DNA of 39,715 nucleotides from Myxococcota bacterium (GTDB lineage: Bacteria > Myxococcota_A > UBA9160 > UBA4427), in assembly GCA_029268645.1 (NCBI GenBank), contig JAQWNI010000127.1:1-39715 (forward strand). Reading direction: 5' to 3'. A program made the translations under genes and the position numbers. The notes beneath the pieces are model-generated. The model was not told the origin of the DNA and did not search any database. It saw only the letters and a list, made by a program, of their open reading frames with translations. Below, in pieces: positions 33,157-35,742 of this stretch. Numbering within the stretch: the first letter of the stretch is position 1; every line of letters starts with the position of its first letter.

Positions 33157-34014
33157 TTAAGACGTTTTGGTCGAAAGGGTGGGTCGGGTTCCGACTACGG
33201 CGAAGAGGTCTACATCGCTTTCCCGTTGCGGGCTGATGGATTCATAGCGGCCGGTGATGGATAGGCCTGCACCTTCGAAAACCGCCTCCAGCGTGGCATC
33301 CGAATAGGCTTGGGTGTGGAGCGAGTAGACCCGGGCAGGAGTTCGCTCGGGAAATACCCAGTAGCGCTCGGTGGTGACCCGGGCTGCAGCGTGCCATTGG
33401 CTTTCATGGAGCAGGACGTAGGGGTCTTCTGCGAAGAGTCCCTCTGGCTCTGTAGACCACTCGCAGGGATTCTCGCCGAGGGCTCGTATGTCGTCTTCAT
33501 ATTGGAGTTCCAGAAGAACCCGACCGGAGGGTGAGAGAGCGGCTTGAACGCGATGGAGCAGGCCTGCGGCTTCCAGGGGCGCAAGCGTATTGAACTCGCC
33601 AAAGAGCATGATGACCATGTCGAAGCCTGATCCGAGTTCGGCACTCCGTAGGTCAATCTGCCGATATTCGCAGTCTTCTCCAGCTTGATCGGCGTGGGCC
33701 TTCGCGTGCTGAATCGAGGCCGGTGATACATCGAGCCCCGTGCATTGGTGCCCTCTTTGGGCCAGACGCTGGGTATAGAGGCCCGGCCCGCATCCTAGGT
33801 CGAGAATCCGCCCGGGCTGGCGGCCGAGGAGGGATTCATGAATCCACGCGACCTGTTGGTCAATGATCTCGAAGCGGCGACTGGCTCGGTCGTGATCCTG
33901 ACAGAGATGCGCCTTCAGTACGCGCCGGCTGAAGTCCGGTTCATTCCAAGGGAGCCCGGTGCCTGGACTGAAGGGGGTCATTGCTGGACGTTGAAGCAGT
34001 GACTGAATATCCAC
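33157..34014 (-). CDS. SAM-dependent methyltransferase, class I
   Basis: The 285-residue protein has the Rossmann-like methyltransferase fold. Motif I is ILDLGCGPGLYT (70-81), followed by CTGLDVSPASIQHAK with the ribose-binding Asp, then YRQIDLRSAEL and FDMVIMLFGEFNTL. The substrate is not evident; the pattern is that of small-molecule methyltransferases. Ten bases after its stop comes the MFS transporter, so the pair may modify and move the same compound. The upstream region 34015-34140 contains GC-rich foldbacks and probably holds the promoter. Confidence 0.88.
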   Translation of the reverse strand: MDIQSLLQRPAMTPFSPGTGLPWNEPDFSRRVLKAHLCQDHDRASRRFEIIDQQVAWIHESLLGRQPGRILDLGCGPGLYTQRLAQRGHQCTGLDVSPASIQHAKAHADQAGEDCEYRQIDLRSAELGSGFDMVIMLFGEFNTLAPLEAAGLLHRVQAALSPSGRVLLELQYEDDIRALGENPCEWSTEPEGLFAEDPYVLLHESQWHAAARVTTERYWVFPERTPARVYSLHTQAYSDATLEAVFEGAGLSITGRYESISPQRESDVDLFAVVGTRPTLSTKTS

Positions 34015-34177
34015 GGCGCGAGGCTACAGCGTTTTGGGCCGTTGATCCCTGCGGAGCCGGCGAGTCGGCCCCCCGGCTTCAAGTCCCTCGGGGAGAGACT
34101 TCGGCTCGCCAGGTTTGCTGCGCGGGCGAGGTTGGGAATAGGGGGCCCTGAGCCCCTAAATAGATTTTTATCTTGCA

Positions 34178-34396
34178 AACGTCTGGGGATCGGGGCACAT
34201 TCAATTTGCACCTGCCGTTCGGTCGCAGCGGCTTCGTGAGGAGCGCATTCGCGCAAGCACGCGGCGAGAAGACCCTCGTTCCCCCCAATGGAATAGGGAC
34301 TGCATGCTCGTCGACGAGCGCCACGTCGAACGCAACGGAAGAAAGAACGGCTCAGCGCCCGGGCGGAGAACCCATCTCTCCCCCGGGCGCTTTTTT
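34178..34396 (+). ncRNA. Candidate structured non-coding RNA with its own terminator
   Basis: No plus-strand gene lies between 31766 and here, yet a plus-strand intrinsic terminator ends this segment, so an independent transcript is implied. An AT-rich patch (TAAATAGATTTTTATCTT) just upstream may be its promoter. The RNA would fold: GCCGTTC (34214-34220) with GAACGGC (34345-34351) as closing stem; CGTG/CACG plus GCGC/GCGC (34235-34261) as one arm; GCTCG/CGAGC around TCGA (34306-34319) as another. I could not match it to tmRNA, RNase P or SRP RNA; a 6S-like RNA is possible but unproven. The 5' end is approximate. Confidence 0.5.
34354..34396 (+). terminator. Very strong intrinsic terminator
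   Basis: AGCGCCCGGG (34354-34363) pairs with CCCGGGCGCT (34382-34391); inside, after one unpaired C, GGAGA (34365-34369) pairs with TCTCC (34377-34381) around a 7-base loop. The stem is followed at once by six T (34391-34396). The T-run is only on the plus-strand side, so it ends a rightward transcript. A second copy of GCCCGG just after the T-run could compete for the 3' arm. Confidence 0.88.
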
Positions 34397-34458
34397 GCCC
34401 GGTGCATTGTCCCCCCCCTCAGGTGAAGTGAGGAGGCCTGGGCCGTCGGCTTGGAGGA

Positions 34459-35742
34459 CTAGGCGGAGCCGAAGCGTTCGAGGATCCAGGGGACAACCGC
34501 GTCCATGAGGGCCTCGACATCGGGGGCTGCCTTGGATCCGAAGTCCGGCTCGAAATAGTGCCTTGCGCGCTCGAAAGCTTGAAAGGTGCGGTCCGGGGCG
34601 GCGACTGCTTCAAAGAGTGGCTGGGCATCCGTCTCGGGATAGATTTCGCGGTCCCGGCCTGCATGGACCAGAAGAGTCGGTTCCATGATCTCAGGCAAGG
34701 TTTGAATCATGTCGGCCCGGGACGTGATCCCCGACCATGTCGAGAGCCACGCTCTTGGGGTGCAGAGCCGAGCAAAGCCCATTAACGCCATATTCATCAA
34801 ATCGGGGCGGTCGCTCAGCAGCGACCCGTATTCGCGGGGGGATGGGTCCAGAGTGCAGTTGACGTAGTGGAGATTCGCCATGGTTCGATAGATCACCATG
34901 ACGGGTTCAAAGGCCTCCCGTAAAAGAATGGAACGCTGTTCTTTGGCACTCTGTTTTTGAAAGTCAGGGTCGGCGTGAAGGTTTTCCGCCGAGACAGTCT
35001 GCTCGACGGCATGAAGCGCCAAGGCATCGAGTCTCCGGACTCGATCGATCTGAGCGGCCCGGTAGCGGGCCACAAACTCCGGTGCGTAGCGAGACCATTG
35101 CGGGGCGGGTTGAAAACCATTTTCCGGGTCATACATGTCGAGGGAGGACTCGCTGATGAGCGGTGCGCTCTCATCGACGACGGCCGGATCGATACATTCG
35201 TTCATGACCCGACCTTCACCCTTGTGGGCCGAAACGTAGATCATTCCGTCTGCCGGGCTGAGAGACGACTGCTCGAGTCGAGTGGCAGCACCCGCCGGAG
35301 TCTTGCGGAGTCTTTGTTCCGGTGAGCGAGCAGCTTGGGCCTGATAGAAGGCGAACAATGACCCGCCTCCTGAGTTTCCGAGTAGGACCACTTTTTGGAC
35401 ACCGACATCTCTGAGGTGGGCGACACAGGCCGCCACGTCCAGAAGGATCGACTCATGCACGGTGTCCGTGTCGTTGTTCGGGTTGCGAGTGTTGGCGCCG
35501 AGGCATCCGATGCCCGCATCGAGGAGGCGGGGGAAACTATAGTGACGCGTAAAATCAACGCGCGGATGCATGGCGACCACGGCTATTCGAGGAATAGGCT
35601 GGGCGTTAGGGGTCCACCAGAGAGCCGTTAACTCGCGGTGGTCTTCCGAGCGGAGAAGGAGGGGCTCAACCCGAGCGTTTTGGGGCGGGGTACGAAAATG
35701 GAATGGGGCCCCTGCCCAGTAAGTTTGGCTGACGAGAAGCAT
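34459..35742 (-). CDS. Alpha/beta hydrolase family protein
   Basis: This 427-residue protein shows the alpha/beta-hydrolase catalytic set: nucleophile elbow LLGNSGGGSLF (Ser124), acid HAGRDREIYP (Asp364) and His395 in RARHYFEPD. A large insertion of about 190 residues between the nucleophile and the acid forms the lid, including MYDPENGFQPAPQWSRYA. No signal peptide is seen, so it is probably cytoplasmic. The substrate is unknown; esterase or C-C hydrolase activity are options. AAGGAGAG precedes the ATG at 35742. It stands alone between the ncRNA candidate and the divergent AsmA gene. Confidence 0.85.
   Translation of the reverse strand: MLLVSQTYWAGAPFHFRTPPQNARVEPLLLRSEDHRELTALWWTPNAQPIPRIAVVAMHPRVDFTRHYSFPRLLDAGIGCLGANTRNPNNDTDTVHESILLDVAACVAHLRDVGVQKVVLLGNSGGGSLFAFYQAQAARSPEQRLRKTPAGAATRLEQSSLSPADGMIYVSAHKGEGRVMNECIDPAVVDESAPLISESSLDMYDPENGFQPAPQWSRYAPEFVARYRAAQIDRVRRLDALALHAVEQTVSAENLHADPDFQKQSAKEQRSILLREAFEPVMVIYRTMANLHYVNCTLDPSPREYGSLLSDRPDLMNMALMGFARLCTPRAWLSTWSGITSRADMIQTLPEIMEPTLLVHAGRDREIYPETDAQPLFEAVAAPDRTFQAFERARHYFEPDFGSKAAPDVEALMDAVVPWILERFGSA

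Follow-up and report, generated by a model that had tools for sequence, protein, structure and literature searches.

Near the right-hand end of the stretch analysed here (the window; 39,715 nucleotides of contig JAQWNI010000127.1 of an uncultured Myxococcota bacterium), a well-formed rightward intrinsic terminator is found at a place where no gene is read on the plus strand. An earlier note, made from the letters of the sequence, had described it as the end of an orphan structured RNA of about 200 bases, and the question raised by the locus is whether such an RNA gene exists and, if so, what kind of RNA it specifies. Both neighbouring genes are indeed directed leftward, a SAM methyltransferase at 33157-34014 and an alpha/beta-hydrolase-like gene at 34459-35742. 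Folded as a single sequence, the whole segment is only mildly more stable than its shuffled versions (z = -1.6), which is unremarkable, and the question was therefore decided by comparison between genomes.

Homologs and transcription signals

When 98 related genomes were searched at the DNA level, five clear relatives were retrieved, and a covariance model was built from the resulting six sequences. The RNA was found in nine genomes of one Myxococcota family, the present one included, as a single copy in each and distributed over four genera: both genomes of the own genus (g1), one genome each of g4 and g12, and all five genomes of g11. The six-sequence model recovers the own copy with an E value of 4.5e-45 and the other eight with E values between 3e-44 and 2e-32. 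Between the own copy and that of the second genome of its genus (G001), the core is 91% identical, while the flanks share about 55% identity.

All nine homologs carry a promoter-like pattern, TTGnnn-N17-CAnnnT, comprising -35-like and -10-like elements and located 39 to 43 bases upstream of the core (Table 1). The pattern is expected by chance in approximately 1% of such sequences, and in none of 2000 rounds of shuffling was it reached in more than two of the nine. The 5' end of the RNA would lie about 7 bases (plus or minus 3) past the -10 element. The terminator proposed in the earlier note was confirmed at exactly the same positions, with its stem at 34354-34391 and the T-run extending to 34396; folded alone it has an energy of -31.2 kcal/mol (z = -4.4), a stability attained by none of 200 shuffled sequences, and six of its pairs show double changes across the nine genomes. 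As read from these signals, the gene carries its own putative promoter and its own terminator around a structured, non-coding core.

Just upstream of the promoter, a terminator-like inverted repeat (TAGGGGGCCCTGAGCCCCTA followed by AATAGATTTTT) occupies positions 34139-34169 of the window. It was not seen at the equivalent place in G001.

Table 1. Predicted features of the RNA locus, in window coordinates
Feature	Position	Strand	Remarks
-35 element TTGCAA	34173..34178	+	TTG-N20-CAnnnT in 9/9 homologs
-10 element CACATT	34196..34201	+	spacer 17; CAGAAT in most relatives
RNA gene	34207..34396	+	approximately 190 nt; conserved core 34212-34396 in nine genomes
Closing helix P1, 5' strand	34214..34220	+	GCCGUUC, pairs with 34345-34351
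Helix P2, 5' strand	34235..34238	+	pairs with 34322-34325
Side hairpin H1	34243..34254	+	GCGC-AUUC-GCGC; stem invariant in 9/9 except for one G-U
Long helix P3, 5' strand	34257..34270	+	pairs with 34305-34319
Apical hairpin P4	34273..34298	+	CCC...GGG, then UUCC...GGAA
Invariant UUCCCCCCAA	34279..34288	+	identical in 9/9; includes the exposed apical loop, CCCCAA
Long helix P3, 3' strand	34305..34319	+	pairs with 34257-34270
Helix P2, 3' strand	34322..34325	+	pairs with 34235-34238
Closing helix P1, 3' strand	34345..34351	+	GAACGGC, pairs with 34214-34220
Intrinsic terminator	34354..34396	+	15-pair stem, one bulged C, U-tract

Conserved fold and covariation

The fold was tested on a MAFFT alignment of the nine sequences that had not been fitted to any structure. 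The consensus contains 52 pairs, and 95.5% of the cells of the alignment are paired, a percentage inflated by the derivation of the consensus from the same nine sequences; double changes to the extent observed are not expected to arise in this way. Such compensatory changes were found at 14 of the 52 pairs (28 cells), in comparison with 7.6 pairs and 9.6 cells in shuffled alignments (reached in 0 of 500), and registers slid along the alignment gave only 2 to 4 pairs with double changes. The support is distributed across P1, P2, P3 and the terminator. It is this conservation and covariation, and not the folding energy of the whole segment, that gives the case for an RNA its strength.

The complementarity of the two strands of P1, to which the earlier note had drawn attention, is that of a covarying helix, with 100% of its cells paired in the nine sequences and double changes in 2 of its 7 pairs. 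P2 is CGUG/CACG in the own copy, GAGCG/CGCUC in g11, and AUGCG/CGCAU in G004. Among the 13 pairs of P3, five show double changes and 92% of cells are paired; in P4, 96% of cells are paired and the changes are one-sided only. The present sequence is able to form the two inner hairpins of the earlier proposal (34235-34261 and 34306-34319), yet across the relatives just 67% of their cells are paired, no better than in shuffles, and their strands appear from the alignment to be taken up by the long-range helices P2 and P3, most clearly in the case of P2. Overall, the pattern of changes indicates that selection has maintained a fold composed of a closing helix, a junction with its side hairpin, a long rod with interruptions that carries the C-rich loop at its tip, and the terminator. 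Six relatives in which the convergent hydrolase is still the neighbour (G001, G011, G017, G020, G023, and G025) also retain the RNA and its pairing, so that the loss of pairing named in the earlier note as a refutation is not observed in them. With promoter, covarying core and terminator kept in nine genomes while the neighbours change, we are nearly certain that the plus-strand locus is a real free-standing structured RNA, as had been suggested.

Distribution and history

The covariance model search revealed no copy in the other 21 genomes of the family, and a second model, built from the nine sequences, found no further copies in 80 genomes of the order. Among 379 genomes of the phylum the only match, in G141 (E value 7.7e-4), was taken as chance, as were matches to the sequence pattern in Gemmatimonadetes, Sulfuritalea, Sulfitobacter, and Phycisphaerales, which had no support from the model there. 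No copy was present in the phages, plasmids and viral contigs searched. Every named record found to carry the RNA is a MAG assigned to the Myxococcota or the Deltaproteobacteria, bacterium TMED88 among them.

In a tree of FtsA and AnmK the carriers fall in one clade (support 0.83) within which genus g2 is nested. A dedicated search confirmed that g2 is without the RNA, which is therefore dispensable there, and no diverged copy was located beside the hydrolase in the non-carrier genera. The simplest history compatible with this tree would be a single origin followed by vertical descent, with loss or extreme divergence in g2.

The apical loop and possible targets

The loop CCCCAA at the tip of P4 has a predicted unpaired probability near 1 in eight of the nine sequences. 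This form, in which a conserved rod displays an unchanging C-run, is that of small RNAs which pair with G-rich sites. By analogy with these, our best guess, which we hold with a slight inclination in its favour, is that the RNA acts on mRNAs through this loop. The RNA would be expressed, its rod and terminator would present and stabilise the loop, the loop would pair with G-rich ribosome-binding sites of the type UUGGGG(GG)AA, and such pairing would block or alter translation of the mRNAs bound.

In the nine carriers, the pattern UUGGGGGGA-N1-12-AUG was found at 61 sites, against 7 for the reversed pattern; in 21 non-carriers the corresponding figures are 80 and 10. The start sites are thus not enriched specifically in carriers, and the carrier and non-carrier ratios do not differ (p = 1). 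The longer match UUGGGGGGAAG, a subset picked post hoc, is commoner in carriers (11 of 61 versus 4 of 80, p = 0.014), an excess which is not significant once orthologs are collapsed (p = 0.08). Ribosome-binding sites with G-runs thus seem to be a habit of the whole family, not visibly shaped by the RNA. In a search of start codons for complements of the loop, ftsA recurs in two genera. Almost every family genome read has a run of about five or more G in the ribosome-binding site of this gene (L187-L216), the G-run being as common where the RNA is lacking, and ftsA was for this reason rejected as evidence of regulation. It is unlikely, in our estimation, that the RNA is a lineage-wide global regulator of translation, with ribosome and C6 loop in competition for the G-run sites of the family; in that case many genes, those of cell division (ftsA) included, would be tuned by a single RNA.

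In genus g11, the leader of a gene of porin type (BBP2-like, slightly under the Pfam cut-off) contains a perfect 12-nt complement, UUGGGGGGAAGC. The complement was seen in G011 and G017, and the same leader lies at a contig end in G020; it is not kept upstream of the relatives found in g1, g4, and g12. This gene is a possible target, or its leader may be regulatory in its own right, and we regard it as a lead only. The leader itself is long and contains, besides UUGGGGGGAAGC, a small open frame beginning MSLQ and several C-runs (L150:200-680, L167:207-700, L154:207-399).

Alternative explanations

The RNA could belong to a neighbouring gene, as its cis-acting leader, its attenuator or a fragment of its 3'-UTR, since in G012 a same-strand gene follows about 100 bases downstream, and one ends upstream of the RNA in G004, G011, and G023. 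The neighbours, however, vary. The convergent hydrolase downstream is common to g1 and g11, while G004 and G012 have other genes there; in all but one of the nine carriers the gene on that side is convergent. The upstream neighbour varies between methyltransferase, TetR-like, TauD-like and acyl-CoA-dehydrogenase-like genes (names of neighbours in relatives were read by eye from the translations, except those tested with Pfam). Because the promoter, present in nine of nine, and the terminator directly behind the core are kept while the neighbours change, the RNA is not the leader or tail of one gene, and we consider a cis-acting element highly improbable. It is even less credible that the locus is a small protein gene or a chance set of inverted repeats. 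Open frames of 68 to 111 codons do cross the region, as expected for GC-rich DNA, but insertions and deletions of one and two bases within the core of relatives indicate that the RNA is non-coding, and the covariation and the conserved promoter and terminator speak against both readings. A structured RNA that works mainly with a protein partner, for instance as a sponge for an RNA-binding regulator, and is bound at the C-run or the GCCAUGGC strand, is a more serious contender that we nevertheless regard as rather doubtful. It would explain why elements beyond the loop are conserved, namely the GCGC stem of the side hairpin and GCCAUGGC in eight of nine sequences; against it, the own copy has GCAACGGA in place of GCCAUGGC, and no repeated motif of a protein-binding type, such as multiple GGA hairpin loops, is present.

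The earlier note had also considered a faint resemblance to 6S RNA, which did not hold up. At gathering thresholds the models of Rfam 15 found nothing in the whole window, and ARAGORN found no tRNA or tmRNA there; the library searched at E values up to 10 over 34015-34460 gave nothing credible, and no match to 6S (RF00013), 6C, tmRNA, SRP or RNase P. A strongly diverged 6S RNA binding RNA polymerase would have a similar length, a rod-like overall form and a wide internal loop above P1, and the 6S slot of the family is apparently empty, as RF00013 recognises none in the 25 family genomes searched. On the other hand, the covarying fold departs from the 6S plan, in which a long closing stem, a central bubble and an apical stem form a single rod: the closing stem has only 7 pairs, a side hairpin is placed at the junction, and the terminator is within the unit. 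Rfam does recognise 6S genes beside anmK in G041 and G044, which belong to the same order, although one of the two scores slightly under the gathering threshold; neither is matched by the model of the present RNA. Moreover, the nested genus g2 and most of the family members lacking a recognised 6S are also without the RNA. We therefore judge the 6S assignment very improbable. No 6S was found at the anmK loci of the family, whose 6S is, on the evidence of RF00013, either very diverged or missing.

At the anmK locus of both own-genus genomes a hairpin with a U-tract is convergent with the gene (L084:1328-1412, L093:2660-2757). It has a weak match to Rfam BjrC68 (E values 0.027 and 0.008, below the gathering score), and may be a further small RNA or no more than a terminator. 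In genus g6, a sequence resembling a cobalamin riboswitch, GCGGGAAGCCGGTG...GCCACTG...GGAAGCCAGAAGACC, lies behind the hydrolase (L045, L046, L047); it was read by eye only.

Comparison with known small RNAs

The locus is an undescribed, lineage-restricted small RNA gene, and represents a new family. Taking fold, distribution and loop together, we think it probable, with moderate confidence, that its product of about 190 nt is a trans-acting small RNA of one Myxococcota lineage, the C-rich-loop mode of action included. The family is absent from Rfam 15, its anatomy is complete and has been tested by covariation, and it comes from a branch of uncultured Myxococcota in which RNA regulation is little known.

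In Mycobacterium abscessus, B11, the homolog of 6C of M. tuberculosis, represses genes via C-rich loops complementary to ribosome-binding sites, one of which has six G residues (PMC10470900). Like 6C/B11, the present RNA is predicted to be free-standing and to expose about six consecutive C in a hairpin loop which could pair with the G-tracts of ribosome-binding sites. It differs in that 6C/B11, from the Actinobacteria, has two C-rich hairpin loops, whereas here a single such loop is carried by a long rod that comes with a junction and a side hairpin, in another phylum, and no Rfam model matches it. 6C/B11 is the closest tested example, by a likeness of presumed working and not of membership. 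PmaR of Agrobacterium also acts through a C-rich loop (PMC6234868), and its spoon-like form, a long stem presenting a single-stranded C-rich loop, is similar to that predicted here; the PmaR loop is larger, the RNA described here adds further helices and a junction, and there is no recognised sequence relation between the two. With 6S RNA it shares size and a partly rod-like form, and is set apart by the lack of a model match in either direction, by its architecture and by its locus. Pxr of Myxococcus xanthus is likewise a conserved free-standing small RNA of the same phylum and is described as three stem-loops (PMC5684412), a description on which the distinction from the present RNA is drawn. 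If the proposed loop mechanism is correct, small RNAs with C-rich loops would have arisen independently outside the Actinobacteria and the alphaproteobacteria.
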